Of a stretch of 38,081 nucleotides of DNA, positions 26,836 through 38,081 are shown piece after piece. Both the position numbers and the translations under genes were made by a program. Source of the stretch: Gammaproteobacteria bacterium (GTDB lineage Bacteria > Pseudomonadota > Gammaproteobacteria > JACCYU01); the NCBI GenBank assembly GCA_013695765.1, contig JACCZW010000054.1, positions 1 through 38,081 on the forward strand, in the 5' to 3' direction. The notes beneath the pieces are model-generated. The model saw only the letters and a list, made by a program, of their open reading frames with translations. It searched no databases and had not been told where the DNA came from. Position 1 is the stretch's first letter. The number at the start of each line of letters is the position of its first letter.

Positions 26836-28049
26836 TCAGGCGGCGTGCTTCCGATCCTCTTCGTTAGCTTGGCGTTTGAGCTGCACGCCATCGACGAATT
26901 TCATGCCCGCGCGGACGGGCGGTAACAGGTGTGCGGCATCGAGCTTGCGCCAGCGTGTCTCGGCCATTTCGATGAGTTTGAAGGCCATGGTCAATGCTTT
27001 GGTGCGGGTGCCGGCGCCTTTCGTGATCCGCTGACGCAACCGCACCGTGGCGAATACCGACTCGATCGGGTTGCTGGTGCGCAAGTGCTTCCAATGCTCA
27101 GCCGGGAAGTCGAAGTGGGTGAGCAACACCGCGCGATCTTTGGCCAGGCAGGTAGCGGCCTTGTCGTACTTCGGCGCGAACTCGATTAAGAAGCGGTCGA
27201 TGTCTTGCTCGGCCTGGCTGCGTGTCTCGGCGTACATGATTTCTCGTAGCATGCGCTTGGCCCTGGGCTGCAGGCGTTTGGGCAGCTTGTCGAGTACGTT
27301 GCCTAGCTTGTGGCACCAGTCGCGCTGCTCGCGAGTCGCCGGCCAGACCTCGCGCACCGCCGCCCAAAAACCCAAGGCGCCATCGCCGACCGCGACGGCA
27401 GGTGCCTGCATGCCGCGGTGCTTGAGATCACGCAACAGCGTGGCCCAGCTCTCGCTACTCTCGCGATAGCCGTCCTCCAGCGCGATCAGCTCCTTACGCC
27501 CGTCGGCACGCGCGCCGATCAGCACCAGCGTGCAGCGCCGGTCGTCCTCAAGGCGCACGTTGAAGTGGATGCCATCGGCCCAGACATACACATAATCCCG
27601 CGCGGCCAGGCGCCGCTGGCGAAACTGCCGATACTCGGTCTCCCACACCGCCGTCAGCCGGGCGATGTTGGTCGCTGATAGACCGGCGGCATCTGCACCG
27701 AGTAGCGCCGCCAGCGCGGGCTGAAAGTCACCCGTGGAGAGCCCGCGCAGATACAACACCGGCTAGACCTCGGCCACCTGCGGTGAGCGGCGCATGTACG
27801 GCGGCAGGAGCTGGCTGGTGAACCGTTGCCGCTTGCCCTCCTCATCAAGACGCCGATCATTGACCCGCGGCGCTCGCACTTTAAGGGTGCCCGCCCCGCA
27901 AGTCATTCCGGTGGTGCCCGATGTAGGCCGCGATCTCAGTCTCTAATGCCATCATCAACATCCTGCGCGCACCTTCCCGAGCGATCTCATCCAGCGTCCC
28001 AACTCATGTAGCGCTTCCGTCGTACCTTGGTTTCGATTAATCTCAACAT
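26836..28049 (-). pseudogene. IS256-family transposase, multiply disrupted
   Basis: The last 307 codons are intact and carry the mutator-type DDE catalytic region: Asp in YVWADGIHFNVR, Asp in AVGDGALGFW and Glu in TSNPIESVFATVRLRQRITKG. Upstream, VNDRRLDEEGKRQRFTSQLL...RRSPQVAEV runs into a TAG (27765-27763) in the same frame where relatives have Leu (EVLPVLYLRG). Further upstream the N-terminal DEIAREGARRM...TEIAAYIGHHRNDLR is in another frame (shift near 27880-27895), with perhaps 30 residues missing at the junction. A third shift lies near 28000. The ATG at 28049 (MLRLIETK) follows a GGGGGAAGGAG site. Confidence 0.88.
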
Positions 28050-28358: not shown

Positions 28359-29486
28359 GTGACTACGGATGGACAAACGTCGGCGTCAGATGGCGCGGCC
28401 CGGGAGCTTCCCTTGGTGTCGGCCATCATGCCTGCGCACAATGCGCAGAAATACATCGCGCTGGCGCTTGACTCCGTACTAACCCAAACCTACAAGAACA
28501 TCGAGGTAATAGTCGTCGACGATGGCTCCACGGATACCACCGCCGAGATCGTCCAGTCATACGCTGGACGGAATCCTCGTGTGACACTGTTACGGCAGCC
28601 GAACGCGGGTGTTGCATCGGCTCGCAATCGGGCGATAGAGGTTTCGCACGGGGAATACATCGCGCCCATCGACGCCGATGACATCTGGTATCCGGAAAAA
28701 ATCGATAAGCAGGTCCGCTACCTGTTCGAGGCGGGATCCAACACCGGTTTAGTTTACGGATGGTTGGCTCGCATCGATAAGAACGGTGAGCTGACGGGAG
28801 GCGCTGACGTTTCTCTTCTATCCGGAGACGTCCTAGCGGCGTTGATATACCGTAACTTCCTATGCTGCGCCAGCCTGCCGCTGATCCACCGAGAGTGCTT
28901 CGAGCGCCTCGGCGGCTATAACACACGCCTGCAGGAACAACGGGCCAGTGGCTCCGAAGACCATGAACTATACCTGCGAATCGCTGAACATTATCAATTC
29001 GGGCTTATTGAGGAACCCTTAGTGGCGTATCGAACGCATTCGAGCAGTATGTCCTGCGACTACCGCTCCATGGAGCGATCACATTTCCTCGTGATTGGCC
29101 AGGTAAGAGAACGTCATCCCCGCATTCCTCCATACCTGCTCCGATGGGCGGCCAGCCGCTATTACATGTATCTTGAATTACGGAGTAGACAAGCGGGACA
29201 TCACTGGACAAGTATCTGCTATCTTTGCAAAGCGGGTTCGGTGGATTTGCGGATGATGCTCTATCCCGATTTTCGTAGACGCCTGGTATTGAACTTATCT
29301 CGCATCGCATACTGGTTGAGGCGCGCCGCTCACTCGCTGGATAAAGGCGCCGGATCGACGACTCGCCGACGCCTCGCGCTAAACGAAATTGTTGAGGTGA
29401 ACAACCGGCGGCCCGCAAGCAAACTCCGACAATTGTATGGACGCCGACTGGAAACGGCACAAAAACTGAACATACGAAGATATTAG
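28359..29486 (+). CDS. Glycosyltransferase family 2
   Basis: 375 residues from GTG 28359. The GT-A fold opens with PLVSAIMPAHNAQKYIALAL and continues with VIVVDDGSTDTTAEIV, NAGVASARNRAIEVSHGEYI and the metal-binding DADD. The central SEDHELYLRI supplies the acidic base region. It lacks membrane helices and should transfer a sugar from a nucleotide donor onto a lipid-linked or growing saccharide at the inner membrane's cytoplasmic face. The basic C-terminus (about residues 300-375) is unassigned. HEAT-repeat gene follows after 13 bases. Confidence 0.92.
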   Translation: MTTDGQTSASDGAARELPLVSAIMPAHNAQKYIALALDSVLTQTYKNIEVIVVDDGSTDTTAEIVQSYAGRNPRVTLLRQPNAGVASARNRAIEVSHGEYIAPIDADDIWYPEKIDKQVRYLFEAGSNTGLVYGWLARIDKNGELTGGADVSLLSGDVLAALIYRNFLCCASLPLIHRECFERLGGYNTRLQEQRASGSEDHELYLRIAEHYQFGLIEEPLVAYRTHSSSMSCDYRSMERSHFLVIGQVRERHPRIPPYLLRWAASRYYMYLELRSRQAGHHWTSICYLCKAGSVDLRMMLYPDFRRRLVLNLSRIAYWLRRAAHSLDKGAGSTTRRRLALNEIVEVNNRRPASKLRQLYGRRLETAQKLNIRRY

Positions 29487-29499
29487 CTAACTGAAAGAA

Positions 29500-30855
29500 A
29501 TGTATAGATTCGACCATCGTGGCGCGTTCGCAGACCGCCGCCAATCACGTCTGATCATGGCAGCCGCTTTGCTTTGTCCAATGCTGTTCGTCGCTCTTAC
29601 GGAAGTAGAAGCTGTTGGACGCGAGGCGACCGGTAAGATCAAGAGCGAAGCTACGCGCGATCTCGATGCAAAGGAAAAGGCGGTTGTATTTACCGAGCAG
29701 TCAGACCAATCGATGCAGCACTTGGTTGAAGAAAGTCTGAATGGATCACAGCAAGCACGCGAGGCACTTGTCAACCTCCGCGATCCTCAGACGCTAACTG
29801 CCCTCGTCGCAGCGCTCAACCACCCTGATCAGGCTGTACGGTACGAGGCCGTCAACACCATCAAGGTCCTCAAGGATGCGCGGGTCGCGCCTGCGTTGAT
29901 CGACGCTTTGAAAAACGGCTATCCGGATGTGCGCGAGACGGCGGCCTGGGCGCTTCTGTCAATCGCCGATAACCGAGCTCTAAAGCCACTGATTGCGCTC
30001 TTGGACGATAGAGTCCCCGACGTTCGTGCGGCGGCGGCTTGGGCGCTCTACCCGATTCCGGATCGTCGATCTGTGGCGCCTCTGATCAAGGGTTTGCATG
30101 ACTGGGACCCGAAGGTACGTATCGCGGCGGCCGACTCGCTGGGCGCACTGGGATACCCCAGTGCCGTTGAGCCTTTAATCTCTCAACTGGGCGATAGACA
30201 CGCTGAGGTGCGCGCAGCGGCAGCATGGGGCGTGGGTAAAATCGGCGACAAACGCGCGGTCCCGGCTTTGATCGACCGAATTGAAGATGTCTATTGGAAA
30301 ATGCGTCAACGTACGGCATGGTCGCTTGGCAATATCGGAGATCAGCAGGCCACCGACGTCTTGATAAAGACCGTGGGCGATGACGACGCAAGAGTCCGCC
30401 GAGTCGCGGCCTCGGCATTGCAATCGCTGGGCGAGCCACTTGGAACCTTGGTTCACTATGCCCTAACGGGTTCGGCCAAAGCCCAGGCAGAACTTGGACA
30501 AAGTAATGACCATCGCGCGGTTACTCCCTTGCTTAAGGCCCTGAACAATCCCGACCCGCTCACCAGGCATGCGGCGGCCCGGAGCCTGGGCGCGCTGGGC
30601 GATGTACGCGGGGTAGACACGCTCGCGGAGATGGCCGGCACGTGGGATCCGCGAGATCGGCTGAGCGCCACGATGGCATTGATTCACATAAAGCAAGCGC
30701 AGCTAATCGATTATCTTGCGACTATCGGCATCGTGATCACTCGGCCGGCAAGCATTGTTTATCTGCTTTGCATCGTGGCTCTACCCGCTTTCATTATAAA
30801 CCGAACTACCCGAAAACATCGAAAACGGCTAAGGCGATACGAACATTACAGCTGA
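29500..30855 (+). CDS. HEAT-repeat protein with terminal membrane helices
   Basis: 451 residues. A hydrophobic N-terminal segment (about 18-38) may be a signal peptide or anchor. Residues about 85-390 are a run of some nine HEAT or PBS-lyase-type helical repeats of about 31 residues, each with the pattern DxDVRxxAAxALxxIxDxxAxxxLIxxL (for example PDVRETAAWALLSI, AEVRAAAAWGVGKI). A C-terminal helix (PASIVYLLCIVALPAFII) is followed by a very basic tail. Such repeats are protein-binding scaffolds. Set inside a glycosyltransferase operon, it may hold assembly enzymes at the membrane; that is inference. Confidence 0.85.
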   Translation: MYRFDHRGAFADRRQSRLIMAAALLCPMLFVALTEVEAVGREATGKIKSEATRDLDAKEKAVVFTEQSDQSMQHLVEESLNGSQQAREALVNLRDPQTLTALVAALNHPDQAVRYEAVNTIKVLKDARVAPALIDALKNGYPDVRETAAWALLSIADNRALKPLIALLDDRVPDVRAAAAWALYPIPDRRSVAPLIKGLHDWDPKVRIAAADSLGALGYPSAVEPLISQLGDRHAEVRAAAAWGVGKIGDKRAVPALIDRIEDVYWKMRQRTAWSLGNIGDQQATDVLIKTVGDDDARVRRVAASALQSLGEPLGTLVHYALTGSAKAQAELGQSNDHRAVTPLLKALNNPDPLTRHAAARSLGALGDVRGVDTLAEMAGTWDPRDRLSATMALIHIKQAQLIDYLATIGIVITRPASIVYLLCIVALPAFIINRTTRKHRKRLRRYEHYS

Positions 30856-30943: not shown

Positions 30944-32011
30944 ATGGATATCATTTTGGTGACAGGATCGGCCGGGTTGATCGGCTCTGAATCCGTACGC
31001 TTCTTCTGTACGCGCGGCTACACGGTAGTTGGCTTTGATAACGACATGCGCGAGGTATTCTTTGGTAAGGACGCCTCGACTCGCTGGAATCGAGATTGCC
31101 TTTTAGAAGAGTTTGGCGAGAGATACATTCATCATGATCTTGACATTCGCGATCACGAAGCAGTCGCCGAGGTGTTCAAGACCTATGGCAAAGATCTTGC
31201 GCTAATCATTCACGCGGCAGCTCAGCCCTCGCATGATTGGGCGGCGCGAGATCCATACACCGATTTCACAGTTAACGCCAATGGGACTCTCGTGTTGCTT
31301 GAAAACACACGCCAGAATAGTCCCGAAGCGGCATTTATCTTCTGCTCTACGAACAAGGTTTACGGAGACAGTCCAAATACATTACCTTTAGTCGAGGGCG
31401 AACTCCGCTGGGAGATTGAGGATACGCATGCTTACCACAACGGCATCGACGAGACCATGAGCATCGATCGTTGCAAGCACTCCTTGTTTGGAGCGTCCAA
31501 AGTTTCAGCCGACATATTGGTGCAGGAATATGGACGTTATTTTGATATGAAGACGGCCAGTTTCCGAGGCGGATGTTTGACGGGTCCGAGTCACTCCGGT
31601 ACCGAGTTGCATGGTTTTCTTTCCTATCTGATGAAATGCACCATGACCGGATCGCATTACAAGGTTTATGGCTATCAGGGTAAGCAGGTCCGCGACAATA
31701 TACACAGTTATGATTTGGTCAACGCCTTCTATCACTTCTTTCAGGCGCCGCGCGTGGCTGAGGTCTACAACATCGGTGGCGGCCGTTTCAGCAACTGTTC
31801 CATTCGGGAAGCCGCTCGGACCTGTGAAAAGATTGCCGGTAAAAAGCTCGACTGGAGTTATTCGAAATCAAACAGGAGCGGCGATCATATCTGGTGGATC
31901 AGCGACATACAGAGATTCAAAAGTCACTATTCCGAATGGAGCCTGACCTACGGAATAGAAGAAATTTTGACGGAAATCTATACGCGTAACACCGCTCGTT
32001 GGACCCAGTGA
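30944..32011 (+). CDS. NAD-dependent SDR epimerase, CDP-paratose/tyvelose 2-epimerase-like
   Basis: 355-residue extended short-chain dehydrogenase. The NAD loop [10 protein letters not shown] is at residues 5-14, [11 protein letters not shown] and [11 protein letters not shown] follow, and the signature [21 protein letters not shown] with [13 protein letters not shown] is typical of enzymes acting on CDP-dideoxysugars or UDP-sugars. The catalytic YxxxK position reads FGASK (Phe182, Lys186). I recall this Phe as common in this particular subfamily, so it is probably not decay. It likely supplies a sugar nucleotide to the surrounding glycosyltransferases. The exact substrate cannot be read from sequence. 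Confidence 0.85.
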
Positions 32012-32200: not shown

Positions 32201-35200
32201 ATGAAAGTGTTGATCATCTCAGCGTATCCGCCGGAACCTGCCCCTGAAGCGAACCATGCGCTCCACCTCAGTGAGCAATTGGCCAAGGCTGGACTCGCTG
32301 TGCACGTCCTGTGCAAAAAAGGAAGCATCGCTGCCACTCAGCAATACATTGTCGTTCACCCCGTTATCGATGATTGGACGTGGTCGGACCTGGCAAGGTT
32401 GGCTAAATGCATGAGAGAAACCCAGCCAGATGTGGTTCTCCTTCTCTATTTAGGGTGGGTTTTCAATCACAATCCCATGATCACCTTCTTGCCGACTATC
32501 TGTAGGACAGCTCTTCCCAGCGTACCTTGCGTAACACAATTCGAAAATATCGATGTCGGTTCTCTGCCTAAATCTTTCTTGACGCGTGCGCTTCGTAAGC
32601 CCATGGCGCTTTGGGCTGGTGGCAAGGATGTGCACCCTTTCTTTGGAACCCTATTGCGAGACAGCGCGCGGATCATTGTTCTCAGCAGCCCCCATGGAGC
32701 CAGGCTCGCGAAGCACTACTCAGGGGTGGAAGAAAAAAGCGTGATTTTACCGCCACCCCCTCTCATTCGATTTTGCTCGGATGATCCCGCTATGACCCGG
32801 AAGCAGGCTCGTGATGCGATAGGCGCTACCGAGCGTGACTTTGTTTTGGTTCACTGGGGCTATATCTACCCGGGCAAAGGGGTGGACACCCTGTTGCATG
32901 CCTTTCGAATGGTGTGCAATCAGAACGCGAATGTGCGCCTTGTTTTCGTTGGTGGCAAACTTGAGTTCCCGACAAAAACGGGATCCGTTAGCTGTAGCGA
33001 TTACTACCATATGGTCCAGCAGCTTCCCGCAAAACTCGGTATAGCCGAAAGGGTAACCTGGACAGGACACTTCGACTGGGACAGTGACGAAGGATCCCGT
33101 TACCTTCATGCTGGCGACGCCTGCGTTCTGCCAATTGATTACGGAGTAACTCTCAATAATAGTTCCTTGGCCGCAGCAGCCGCGCACGGAGTGCCTGTCA
33201 TCGGCACCGAACTACTTATGGGACAAGATGAGGCGCTGGAGCACGGCCGTAATATCTATCTCTGTCGGCCCCGGGATTCCGAAATGCTTGCGGAAATGAT
33301 TCTGCTGATTAGCGAGAACGCCGCATTGCGTGAGCGTTTGCGAGCGGGGATCCTCAGCCTGGCTCGGGAATGGCATCGCTGGGATACCATGACACAGCAC
33401 CTGGTCGGCGTGTTGGAAGCAGCGGTCTCAAAATCCTCCAATGTGCGCCCTAGCGAGCGTGATGATGAACTTCGACAAGTTCGTTGGACAGATTCACATG
33501 CCGCGCCATGGGTACAGGCCGACGAAGACAATGGGAACACTCCCCTTGTATCTGTGGTGGTCGCGGCCTACAACGTCGAGAAGTATCTGAGTCAATGCCT
33601 GGATTCCTTGATAAGTCAGACATTAAGGAATGTCGAAATCATTGTGGTCAACGACGCTTCGACAGACAACAGTCTTGGTATCATCAACGACTACATATCC
33701 CGGTATCCCAACATTCGAGTTTTCAGCTGCGAATCGAATAAGGGGTTAGCTTCTGTCCGTAATATCGGAATGAAGGTAGCAAGAGGAGAGTACATTGCCT
33801 TCACCGATGGAGACGACTGGGCGGATGTAAGAATGTGCGAGCTACTGCACCGGCGAGCAAAGACGGACAATGCAGACGTTCTGATCGCGGATGCCAAGGT
33901 CTACTACGAAGACTCTAAAGCCATCGGTCCTCTCTTCGACCATCAAGTTCGGCGGATCTTGGACTCTCAGCTGAGAACGATGCCATTTGAACTGTCCCGC
34001 GAACCCCGCATCCTCTTGTTGGAACTTGTCGCTTGGACAAAGCTATACAAGCGATCATTTCTTCGAGAGCATGAGTTGCTTTTTGAGGAAGGAATGAACT
34101 CCTATGAGGATATCTGTTTTCACTTTTCTGTGCTTTTCAAGGCAAGGAAAATATCGCTTACTGATGACGCTCTCCTGTTTTATCGGCGGAACCGACCAGG
34201 TCAGATAACGGCGCGGACGAATCGGAAGAACTTCGAGACATTCGCGATCTTTGACAGGATCCATGAGAACTTGACTTCATGGAATGCCTCTGCCCAGATC
34301 TGGGCCATGCTGATCCGGACCCAGTTACGAATCTTTGACTGGTTGCTTCAAGACCGGGTGCAGGGTCACCATAAGCGGGAATTTCTTGCCTTAGTAGCTA
34401 AACAATTTCAGAAGATCCCGAAACCCGGCTTCCGAATCTTTCGCCGGCAGGCAAATCCCGAGGAATTGCTGAAACTGCTCTGCATGCGAAGAGATTGGCT
34501 TCACGCCTATGAAAAAGTCGCAAGCCAGCACTGGCGTCTACTTTCAGTCATATATCAGATACTCCAGCGGCGGCGCGTTGGCCTAAAGCGGGGTCGTAAA
34601 CGCGGCGTTGGCGTACTGGCTCAGCGATTGACATCTGAACTCCAGCGCTTCGTCAGTAGACTGCTTAATCTACAAAGGTTCACCAAGAAATTCGAGGCAA
34701 TCAGTAAGAGCCTGGGTAAGGTAACCGGCATTAATGCGTTCGCCTCACGAGGCGACGAGCCTCTTATCGACGTCCGCCGGATCGACGATCAGGTACTTTT
34801 TTTCTCGCATTTGGCCAAGAAGTCTGGCCTAGCAGACGCGGTATGGCGAATGGAAAATGACTATTATCTCTTGCATACGGCCTGTTTCAGGGCGGGAGAC
34901 ACAATCATCGACGTCGGCGCGCATGTGGGCGTTATTTCGATCTATCTTGCCAAGAAATACCCGTTCATAACGGTTTATGCGATCGAACCAGATCCCATGA
35001 ACTATAGCTGTCTACAGCGCAACGTCGAGCTAAATGGTGTAACAAACGTCATTGCAATTAATAAAGCAGTTTCTGGAAAAGGGCAAGAAGGAACACTATA
35101 TGTCGATCCCTGGGATAGCGGGTGGGCAACAATCGATGCAGAGGTGGCATCCTCTCGCCGTTTTCTCCAAACCGTACCTGTGGAATCAGTGACCCTCGAA

Positions 35201-37639
35201 CAGCTATTTCAAGAATACGACATCAGTTACTGCCGTCTCCTAAAGATTAATGCCCCCGGGGCCGTTCGTGGGTCTTTGAAAGCGTTCACGAGAAGTGGCT
35301 GCGTCGATCTTCTTTGCGGAGAGGTAAACCTTGAAGATTGCAGCCGAGCGAAACTGGAAATGGCCAGTTGGACAATTGCTCGTCAGCATTTTTGGAGAAC
35401 TGTCACCCGGCAACCCGACGGACCTGTTTACTCTTGGATCCAGCAGCTTCCTACAGAGATTGAGCGGCTTCCGTCTGCGGAACCGTACAACAAGGAGAGA
35501 AAATTTTCGGATATCCACCCTCCAAAGCGAGACGAAGTGCTTTTAGCAATTGACGAGGATGATCCACAGATTCTCTCGCGAGTATGGTCCGGTAGAGATA
35601 GTCTGTACGACATCACCGCTCCCCTTGTATCCGTGATAGTCGCTGCCTACAACGTCGAGAAGTACCTAAGTCAATGCCTAGATTCCTTGGTCAATCAGAC
35701 GTTGAAGAACATCGAAATCATTGTGGTCAACGATGCCTCTACGGACAACAGCGTCGATATACTTGATGACTACAAGTCAACATACCCAAACGTTCGAGTG
35801 GTCAACTGCGAATACAACAGGGGGTTGGCTTCGGTTCGCAATATCGGGATGAAAGTAGCAAGAGGAGAATACATTGCCTTCACCGATGGAGATGATTGGG
35901 CAGATGTGAGAATGTGCGAGGCCATGTATCGGCGAGCCAGCGAGAACGAATCAGACGTTTTGATAGCGGATGCCAAGGTCTTTTACGAAGACTCCAAGAC
36001 TTTTGTTCAGTTCTTCGACCATCATATTCGACAGAGCTTGGATCCTCGATTGAGGACCATGCCATTCGAGCTTTGCGGCGCGCCTCGTGTTCTTCTGCTG
36101 GAACCTGTCGCCTGGACAAAGATATACAAGAGATCATTCCTTAAAGAGCACGCGATCCAGTTTGAGGACGGAATGAACTCTTATGAGGATATATGTTTTC
36201 ACTTCTCTGTTCTATTGAGGGCGACGACAATATCGCTTACCGATGAATCCTTTTTATTCTATCGACAGAACCGGCCAGGTCAAATATCGGGTCGGACCAG
36301 TCGAAAGGTGTTCGAGGTCTTCGCTGTTTTTCGCAAGATCCACGACAACTTGGCTTCGTGGCATGTTTCAGCCGATATTTGGGCGCTGCTGGTCAGGGTA
36401 CAATTGCGGCAGTTTGATTGGCTGCTCAAAGACCGGGTACAGGCGGAACATAAGCGGGAATTCCTTGCGTTGGTCGCAAAGCAACTTCGATTGATTCCTG
36501 AGTCCGGCTTCCAAATCTTTGCTCGGCAGGCAACTCCTGATGAATCGTTCAAGTTGCTCTGTATGCGAAGAAACTGGCTTCGCGCGTACGAAAAGGTTCT
36601 AAGAGGTCGCTGGTCTCTACTTCCGACATCCTACGCAATGCTCCATAGCCGGCGGCGCACCCCCTCAAAACGGCTCCGGCAACCTGGCTCAGGAATGCTG
36701 CGTCGGCGATTGGTCTCTAGATCCCGATACTTTGTCGACCAGTCGCTTAGTTTGGCGAAGTTCAATAAACAGTTGCGGGCCGTCAATGATAATCTAAAGA
36801 CGCTGATCGACGCCAACGCCTTCGCTTCGCAAAGCGAAGAAGCTCTAGTCGAAGTTTGTTGGATCGACGATCAAAAGTTTCTTTTCGCCCATTGGGCTAA
36901 CAATCCGGGCGTGAGAGATGCGGTGTGGCGGATGGCTAATGATTATTACCTTTCGCAAGCGGCCGCTTTCCGGGAGGGAGACACGGTCATCGACGTCGGC
37001 GCACATGTTGGCGTGGTTTCGATCTTCCTTGCCAAGAAGTATCCGTTCATAACGGTTTATGCCATCGAACCCAACCCACTGAACTATGCCTGTCTCAGGC
37101 GGAACATTGAATTGAATGATGCAACAAACGTCATTGCAATCAACAAGTCAATTTCTGGGGAAGGACAAGAAGGAACATTATACGTTGACCCCTGGAATTG
37201 CGCATGGGCAACAATCGACCCGGGCGTGGCGGCCTCGCGTCGTCATCTCCAAATGGTGCCCGTTGAATCCGTAACTCTGGAATGGCTCTTTCAAGTATGT
37301 AGAATTCGGCACTGCCGCTTGCTCAAGGTCACGGCAGTTGGGGCCGTTCGTCGATCATTGAAAGCTTTCACGCGAAGTAATTGCGTCGATCTTCTTTGCG
37401 GGGAATCGGATACAGAGGACTGCAGCCGCGCGACATTGGAATTGGCGAGTAGAACAATAGCTCGTCAGTATTTTTGGAGAACTGTTGAGCGACAGGCTAA
37501 TGCAACCGTCTACTCCTGGATACAGCAGCTTCCCAGACTTTCGAGCGACGAGTCTCATCTCACGAGTTTAGCTGAGGCCGATGGCGCACCTCCCAAGAAC
37601 TGCCCGTACATCAACCGCATGACCCCAAGGTTCAAATAA
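32201..37639 (+). CDS. Giant fusion: GT4 glycosyltransferase plus two tandem GT2-FkbM modules
   Basis: 1812 residues in one frame, preceded by AGGA nine bases before the ATG. Residues 1-410 are a GT-B glycosyltransferase (MKVLIISAYPPEPAPEANHA; HWGYIYPGKGVDTLLHAF; YGVTLNNSSLAAAAAHGVPVIG). Module one: GT2 from 447 (DGDD 536-539, ED 636-637), a helical basic linker, then an FkbM-like methyltransferase (IDVGAHVG, Asp904). Module two repeats this from 1140 (DGDD 1229, ED 1329, SAM Asp1598). Both FkbM-like parts have lost the acidic KIDxEG motif (KINAPG near 1015, KVTAVG near 1708). No membrane helices are seen. It may build and modify a surface glycan stepwise. Confidence 0.93.
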   Translation: MKVLIISAYPPEPAPEANHALHLSEQLAKAGLAVHVLCKKGSIAATQQYIVVHPVIDDWTWSDLARLAKCMRETQPDVVLLLYLGWVFNHNPMITFLPTICRTALPSVPCVTQFENIDVGSLPKSFLTRALRKPMALWAGGKDVHPFFGTLLRDSARIIVLSSPHGARLAKHYSGVEEKSVILPPPPLIRFCSDDPAMTRKQARDAIGATERDFVLVHWGYIYPGKGVDTLLHAFRMVCNQNANVRLVFVGGKLEFPTKTGSVSCSDYYHMVQQLPAKLGIAERVTWTGHFDWDSDEGSRYLHAGDACVLPIDYGVTLNNSSLAAAAAHGVPVIGTELLMGQDEALEHGRNIYLCRPRDSEMLAEMILLISENAALRERLRAGILSLAREWHRWDTMTQHLVGVLEAAVSKSSNVRPSERDDELRQVRWTDSHAAPWVQADEDNGNTPLVSVVVAAYNVEKYLSQCLDSLISQTLRNVEIIVVNDASTDNSLGIINDYISRYPNIRVFSCESNKGLASVRNIGMKVARGEYIAFTDGDDWADVRMCELLHRRAKTDNADVLIADAKVYYEDSKAIGPLFDHQVRRILDSQLRTMPFELSREPRILLLELVAWTKLYKRSFLREHELLFEEGMNSYEDICFHFSVLFKARKISLTDDALLFYRRNRPGQITARTNRKNFETFAIFDRIHENLTSWNASAQIWAMLIRTQLRIFDWLLQDRVQGHHKREFLALVAKQFQKIPKPGFRIFRRQANPEELLKLLCMRRDWLHAYEKVASQHWRLLSVIYQILQRRRVGLKRGRKRGVGVLAQRLTSELQRFVSRLLNLQRFTKKFEAISKSLGKVTGINAFASRGDEPLIDVRRIDDQVLFFSHLAKKSGLADAVWRMENDYYLLHTACFRAGDTIIDVGAHVGVISIYLAKKYPFITVYAIEPDPMNYSCLQRNVELNGVTNVIAINKAVSGKGQEGTLYVDPWDSGWATIDAEVASSRRFLQTVPVESVTLEQLFQEYDISYCRLLKINAPGAVRGSLKAFTRSGCVDLLCGEVNLEDCSRAKLEMASWTIARQHFWRTVTRQPDGPVYSWIQQLPTEIERLPSAEPYNKERKFSDIHPPKRDEVLLAIDEDDPQILSRVWSGRDSLYDITAPLVSVIVAAYNVEKYLSQCLDSLVNQTLKNIEIIVVNDASTDNSVDILDDYKSTYPNVRVVNCEYNRGLASVRNIGMKVARGEYIAFTDGDDWADVRMCEAMYRRASENESDVLIADAKVFYEDSKTFVQFFDHHIRQSLDPRLRTMPFELCGAPRVLLLEPVAWTKIYKRSFLKEHAIQFEDGMNSYEDICFHFSVLLRATTISLTDESFLFYRQNRPGQISGRTSRKVFEVFAVFRKIHDNLASWHVSADIWALLVRVQLRQFDWLLKDRVQAEHKREFLALVAKQLRLIPESGFQIFARQATPDESFKLLCMRRNWLRAYEKVLRGRWSLLPTSYAMLHSRRRTPSKRLRQPGSGMLRRRLVSRSRYFVDQSLSLAKFNKQLRAVNDNLKTLIDANAFASQSEEALVEVCWIDDQKFLFAHWANNPGVRDAVWRMANDYYLSQAAAFREGDTVIDVGAHVGVVSIFLAKKYPFITVYAIEPNPLNYACLRRNIELNDATNVIAINKSISGEGQEGTLYVDPWNCAWATIDPGVAASRRHLQMVPVESVTLEWLFQVCRIRHCRLLKVTAVGAVRRSLKAFTRSNCVDLLCGESDTEDCSRATLELASRTIARQYFWRTVERQANATVYSWIQQLPRLSSDESHLTSLAEADGAPPKNCPYINRMTPRFK
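33539..35453 (+). repeat. Internal tandem repeat, copy 1 (GT2-FkbM module)
   Basis: This stretch and copy 2 encode aligned domains along their full length. Landmarks recur with a period of 2079 bases through the GT2 part and 2082 in the methyltransferase part, so only one codon was gained. Long identical DNA words remain, such as CAACGTCGAGAAGTA and ACATTGCCTTCACCGATGGA. Confidence 0.9.
35618..37534 (+). repeat. Internal tandem repeat, copy 2 (GT2-FkbM module)
   Basis: Second copy of the module, joined to copy 1 by about 55 codons of acidic, unrelated-looking linker. It ends with the same YSWIQQLP residues as copy 1, after which the protein has about 35 unique residues. Divergence is spread evenly, with most codon differences silent or conservative, which points to an old duplication under selection. 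Confidence 0.9.
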
Positions 37640-37774: not shown

Positions 37775-38081
37775 ATGAAACGTCTTCATTTATGTGGGGT
37801 GCTATGGCTGATTTGTACGGCGTGTGGGGTTTGGCATCCAACGATTCTGGATAGGCGCTTACCGGGGTCGCCTGGCGAGACGCGTGCCGACTATACCCAG
37901 CACGTCGCTGTCAGCGCGTTCACCGGTTCGTATTTCGATAGCAAAAATTTCACGAATCGCAAGATGACCCGCGTCGATGATGCGATCGACTTCAATTGGG
38001 GAAAGGGTTCGCCTTCGTCACTCATGAGCCGCGATAGTTTTTCAATTCGCTGGGTTGGCAACTTCGTATTCCAAGAGGGTG
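37775..38081 (+). CDS. Exported PA14-domain protein, 5' part
   Basis: From the ATG at 37775 the frame is open to the window end (102 residues). A hydrophobic N-terminus (LHLCGVLWLICTACGVW) looks like a signal peptide and could be a lipoprotein signal, though the lipobox is imperfect. Residues about 45-102 (AFTGSYFDSKNFTNRKMTRV, AIDFNWGKGSP, DSFSIRWVGNFVFQEG) are the beginning of a PA14 beta-barrel, a carbohydrate-binding fold found in adhesins and glycosidases. Next to a surface-glycan operon, it may bind or process the product. The gene continues outside the window. Confidence 0.8.
   Translation, partial: MKRLHLCGVLWLICTACGVWHPTILDRRLPGSPGETRADYTQHVAVSAFTGSYFDSKNFTNRKMTRVDDAIDFNWGKGSPSSLMSRDSFSIRWVGNFVFQEG

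Follow-up and report, generated by a model that had tools for sequence, protein, structure and literature searches.

The 1812-residue protein encoded near the right-hand end of the window is the module-duplicated form of a small GT4-GT2-FkbM family. The window, which is the whole stretch of DNA analyzed here, comprises all of contig 54 (38,081 bases) of a 3.13-Mb genome that is 99% complete. We hold at roughly even confidence that the protein is a multi-module glycan glycosyltransferase with a duplicated module, in which the GT2 domains, perhaps joined by the GT4 domain, would act in sequence and the FkbM domains are probably non-catalytic. The gene and its parts are as follows.

32201..37639, + strand: five-domain gene GT4-GT2-FkbM-GT2-FkbM (1812-codon open reading frame from ATG to TAA, 1812 residues)
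32201..33436, + strand: GT4 domain with GT-B fold (residues 1-412; assigned by Pfam and motif reading)
33536..34300, + strand: GT2 domain 1 (residues 446-700; Pfam; NDASTDN, TDGDD and SYEDIC intact)
34670..34732, + strand: heptad, coiled-coil-like segment before FkbM 1 (residues 824-844; same aligned place in four module copies)
34832..35455, + strand: FkbM-like domain 1 (residues 878-1085; SAM motif IDVGAHVG at 903-910)
35243..35266, + strand: degenerate motif IV of FkbM 1 (KINAPGAV; KxDxEGxE in relatives)
35618..36382, + strand: GT2 domain 2 (residues 1140-1394; Pfam; motifs intact)
36752..36814, + strand: heptad segment before FkbM 2 (residues 1518-1538; same aligned place in four module copies)
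36914..37537, + strand: FkbM-like domain 2 (residues 1572-1779; SAM motif IDVGAHVG at 1597-1604)
37325..37348, + strand: degenerate motif IV of FkbM 2 (KVTAVGAV; KxDxEGxE in relatives)

No stop codon or frameshift interrupts the 1812 codons between 32201 and 37639, and the open reading frame call agrees with the Pfam and TIGR01444 profiles on the single frame and five-domain order given in a preliminary description of this DNA. Glyco_transf_4 matched residues 18-185 (PF13439, 30.1 bits against a cut-off of 28.5) and Glyco_trans_1_4 matched residues 215-371 (PF13692, 63.9 bits against a cut-off of 27), corresponding to the two halves of the GT4 domain. Three further profiles each matched the protein twice: Glycos_transf_2 (PF00535; best match 1144-1269, E = 1.4e-72), Methyltransf_21 (PF05050; best match 904-1021, E = 2.3e-11, with 44.6 bits on the FkbM-like domain against a curated cut-off of 22.7) and TIGR01444 fkbM_fam (132.8 bits against a cut-off of 37.7).

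DNA repeats within the gene are spaced 2079 and 2082 nucleotides apart, which equals the period of 693 and 694 codons described earlier. The two GT2-FkbM modules share 446 of 686 residues (65%), with a dN of 0.24 and a dS of 1.14 between them; the resulting dN/dS of about 0.2 is similar in the GT2 and FkbM parts. Identity between modules is 72% in GT2, 70% in FkbM and 54% in the intervening region. The duplication is therefore old and under purifying selection. Protein divergence of 35% together with a dS of about 1.1 rules out a recent assembly duplication, so the concern that the repeat might be an assembly-duplicated segment was not borne out. This divergence and the independent single-module homologue in another phylum, described below, exclude both chance and a recent assembly duplication as explanations. 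The duplication may have come before or after the split from the Nitrospira lineage: the two window modules were sisters with 65% and 71% support in two FkbM trees and 59% in a concatenated tree, and a GT2 tree did not join them (42%).

We searched for relatives of this protein in several genome collections. The FkbM alignment, run against 84,980 species genomes, picked up one strong relative, 57% identical across the whole domain, in a Nitrospira MAG. This MAG (JACOEF010000019.1, L014:1340-4696) encodes a complete GT4-GT2-FkbM protein of 1118 residues that is 56% identical to residues 1-1088 of the window protein. On G378 contig 210, from another Nitrospira genome, GT4-GT2-FkbM is encoded up to a contig end that falls inside FkbM. 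Both share the first three domains with the window protein in the same order at 55-56% identity. In contrast to the two GT2-FkbM modules of the window protein, the complete Nitrospira fusion has one, and its gene lies directly after an ABC ATPase gene with a Wzt_C domain, as in Wzt-type exporters; the second Nitrospira protein has one module before the contig end, and another may lie beyond it. The species scan was built on two short peptide patterns; as it missed the second Nitrospira fusion, it is not exhaustive. Profile searches of 369 genomes of the class, 398 of the phylum, 175 of the Nitrospira family and 396 of the Nitrospirota (partly overlapping sets) produced no further fused member. 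The architecture is rare: no second five-domain protein was found in the 84,980-species scan or when about 1,400 genomes were searched with profiles, no relative of the FkbM module was found in genomes of the same genus and class, and plasmids, phages and viral contigs yielded generic GT2 matches or none, with no close relative.

Three other candidates were rejected as family members. G648 encodes an aminotransferase fused to an FkbM domain whose motif is intact, G641 is probably the same kind of fusion, since its frame is equally long, and G538 is an ordinary FkbM protein (KVDVDG). At L137:1261-3387, in another genome of the same phylum, an aminotransferase that is DegT-like as read by eye is joined to FkbM with the motif intact.

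We then compared the FkbM domains with their relatives. The SAM site, consisting of GDTxIDVGAxxG (motif I) and EP (motif II), is intact in all fused FkbM copies. Motif IV is readable in only three of these copies, because the contig ends within the second Nitrospira copy, and in all three both acidic residues and the next Glu are replaced; the complete Nitrospira fusion reads KMTAHGAT and has thus lost the acids as the window protein has. Among 39 aligned FkbM relatives, which were picked with a pattern for motif IV itself, the K and G of the motif are present in 39/39, the first acidic position is D in 34 and N in 5 (N, T and T in the fused copies), and the second is E in 32, Q in 4 and D in 3 (P, V and H in the fused copies). 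Nearly all unselected FkbM-type loci also have the KxDxEG motif; the exceptions were one KIDVER, one KLDIEG that a search window set too short had missed, and one protein without FkbM-like sequence in this region. The nearest stand-alone FkbM found outside the fusion, from another Nitrospirota genome (G1088 contig 12), is 37% identical and reads KIDCEGSE. Because this protein keeps the motif, we place the loss in the fused lineage, common to both window modules.

Judging from its conservation and position, KxDxEG is probably catalytic in FkbM proteins. The window domains match the profiles and carry the SAM motifs without motif IV, so we regard them as FkbM-derived by descent and not as typical FkbM methyltransferases. 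A model of the FkbM domain, with a mean pLDDT of 77.5 and values mostly above 87 in the core blocks, shows the Rossmann fold of SAM methyltransferases, with the degenerate motif IV directly following a core strand. It superimposes on the FkbM crystal structure 2py6 with a Z score of 11.9 and an rmsd of 2.9 over 156 aligned residues, and the 2py6 sequence has an intact KMDIEG. Thus, stand-alone FkbM proteins (2py6 and G1088 contig 12) share the fold and SAM-binding motif of the window domains, but retain KxDxEG and are not fused to glycosyltransferases. In Foldseek and VIA-align comparisons of the domain, the top places went to other SAM methyltransferases, COMT among them; the fold is uninformative about the substrate. 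The C-terminal parts contain family-specific conserved stretches (CRLLK, DLLCGE, IARQxFWRT and SWxQQLP), which fit a retained but changed role. The preliminary description had paired each GT2 with its own modification domain. This pairing is doubtful because the fused FkbM domains lack the acidic residues of KxDxEG, which nearly all compared FkbM proteins have, and FkbM domains that are catalytically silent and bind SAM or act as scaffolds appear more likely from the residues at motif IV.

The glycosyltransferase domains differ in how well their motifs are preserved. GT2 membership is indicated by the PF00535 match and by conserved nucleotide, DXD-type and ED motifs, all of which are present, and NDASTDN, TDGDD and SYED are retained in every GT2 copy of the window and of Nitrospira. 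A stand-alone GT4 of Nitrospira, encoded after the epimerase described below, shares 40% identity with the GT4 domain. Read by eye, NNSSLAAAAAHG / DYGVTLNNSSLAAAAAHG stand where the canonical EX7E is expected, and a stand-alone relative has LEGVQLNNSSFASMVAHG at this site. Of the three glycosyl transfers originally envisaged, two by the GT2 domains are plausible because both motif sets are intact, and a third by GT4 is uncertain because the domain lacks a canonical EX7E. A structure model of GT4-GT2-FkbM, built from four aligned sequences, reached a pLDDT of 35, too low to show how the domains are arranged.

The gene lies in a region of unusual composition. The GC content of the right-hand 10 kb is 0.50-0.56 compared to about 0.59-0.63 over most of the remaining window, and that of the five-domain gene is 0.51 compared to 0.65 for the host leuC. 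The neighboring features are listed below.

26836-27759, - strand: N-terminally truncated transposase of the IS256 family, bordering the low-GC island
28359..29486, + strand: separate GT2 gene in the same low-GC island
29500-30855, + strand: HEAT/PBS-lyase-like repeat protein encoded between glycan genes, hydrophobic in stretches close to either end
30944..32011, + strand: NAD-dependent sugar epimerase/dehydratase, the next gene upstream of the five-domain gene
37775-38081, + strand: start of a gene that runs off the contig; its N-terminus resembles that of a lipoprotein, and PA14 matches weakly

We infer that the low-GC region is an acquired surface-glycan island. In both Nitrospira genomes, stand-alone GT4 and GT2 genes adjoin an epimerase to which that of the window is 52% identical. 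At these loci (L111 on G369 contig 152 and L134 on G378 contig 261), epimerase, GT4 and GT2 are adjoining separate genes, and the epimerases and GT4 proteins of the two loci are 82-90% alike. They are possibly the unfused counterpart of the window's epimerase and fusion gene. A scan of the gene region for promoters and terminators gave nothing above chance. The host genome gave no match to Wzt_C in a profile search, and therefore the link to an ABC exporter is limited to Nitrospira. Some Wzt proteins lack the Wzt_C domain.

Chains that join several glycosyltransferases with a methyltransferase have already been described. ORF6 of the Klebsiella pneumoniae O7 locus is ordered methyltransferase-kinase-coiled coil-GT2-GT2 and its kinase is active (PMC11231755). 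Like the window protein, it is a single glycan-assembly chain that combines a methyltransferase domain with a pair of GT2 domains, which in O7 ORF6 are connected by a coiled coil. It differs in its domain order and active kinase, and lacks both a GT4 domain and a duplicated glycosyltransferase-methyltransferase module. A064R of chlorovirus PBCV-1 is a GT-GT-methyltransferase chain of 638 residues whose three activities have been shown biochemically (PMC9614988). It also combines several glycosyltransferases with a methyltransferase, but these belong to other GT families, the methyltransferase is active and there is one module.

An alternative, in line with the preliminary description, is that both FkbM domains act as O-methyltransferases on the sugar added by their own GT2, by a mechanism independent of the usual acidic residues. 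Some methyltransferases do work without a metal or an acid. This possibility fits the intact motif I and EP in all copies, the purifying selection and the example of A064R, whose fused methyltransferase methylates the sugar of the neighboring glycosyltransferase (PMC9614988). Nevertheless, replacement of the motif IV acids and the next Glu in 3/3 readable copies, when the closest stand-alone protein found keeps them, makes it rather doubtful. We also considered a polymerase-terminator of the WbdD, WbbB or O7 ORF6 kind, in which the glycosyltransferases would polymerize the chain, a helical or coiled-coil spacer would follow and the terminal FkbM would cap the product. The Wzt-type ABC ATPase directly upstream of the Nitrospira relative, the heptad segment that separates GT2 from FkbM in each of the four copies, and the union of methyltransferase, coiled coil and two GT2 domains in O7 ORF6 (PMC11231755) are consistent with this arrangement. 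However, known rulers are extended and the segment contains only about three heptads, a signal that shuffled linkers equaled in 4-18% of trials per copy. Moreover, there is no kinase domain, the FkbM acids are lost, one FkbM copy is internal and not terminal, and the host has no Wzt_C match. We therefore consider a terminator of this kind unlikely. A contig end 442 bases beyond the gene, the lost FkbM motif, and the truncated transposase and low GC nearby could also be signs of decay, or of two genes joined during assembly. That the long frame is such a relic or chimera is highly improbable given 1812 codons without a stop or frameshift, a dN/dS of about 0.2 between the modules and the same fusion order in Nitrospira.

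We favor a cytoplasmic multi-module glycosyltransferase belonging to the surface-glycan island, which would have arisen by tandem duplication of the GT2-FkbM half of the fusion shared with Nitrospira. Its pair of GT2 domains, perhaps together with GT4, would extend a glycan, probably on a lipid carrier, one sugar after another. Methyl transfer by the FkbM domains has probably been lost along with the motif IV acids; these domains would retain a SAM-binding fold and probably bind SAM or play a structural part, keeping the module together or binding partners. A further, more tentative possibility is that, within the fused glycosyltransferase family, FkbM domains have become pseudoenzymes that bind SAM and act as scaffolds or regulators of sugar transfer, perhaps as SAM sensors, and that duplication of the module in this lineage gave a chain producing a longer or more complex repeat.

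The literature search found no paper on the GT4-GT2-FkbM-GT2-FkbM order. The earlier suggestion of a new architecture thus holds for the five-domain duplicated form, which these searches found nowhere else, but not for its elements, since GT4-GT2-FkbM occurs in Nitrospira and multi-glycosyltransferase chains with a methyltransferase are in the literature. What is new, as far as these tools reach, is the GT4-GT2-FkbM family shared with Nitrospira, its duplicated module and the common loss of the FkbM acids. Profile-based annotation labels these domains "FkbM methyltransferase", although their catalysis is doubtful. Multi-module glycan polymerases are a bacterial way to fix the order of sugar addition within one chain. 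FkbM domains that have lost their acids, yet remain under purifying selection and were duplicated together with GT2, offer a concrete test case for methyltransferase domains as scaffolds or SAM sensors.
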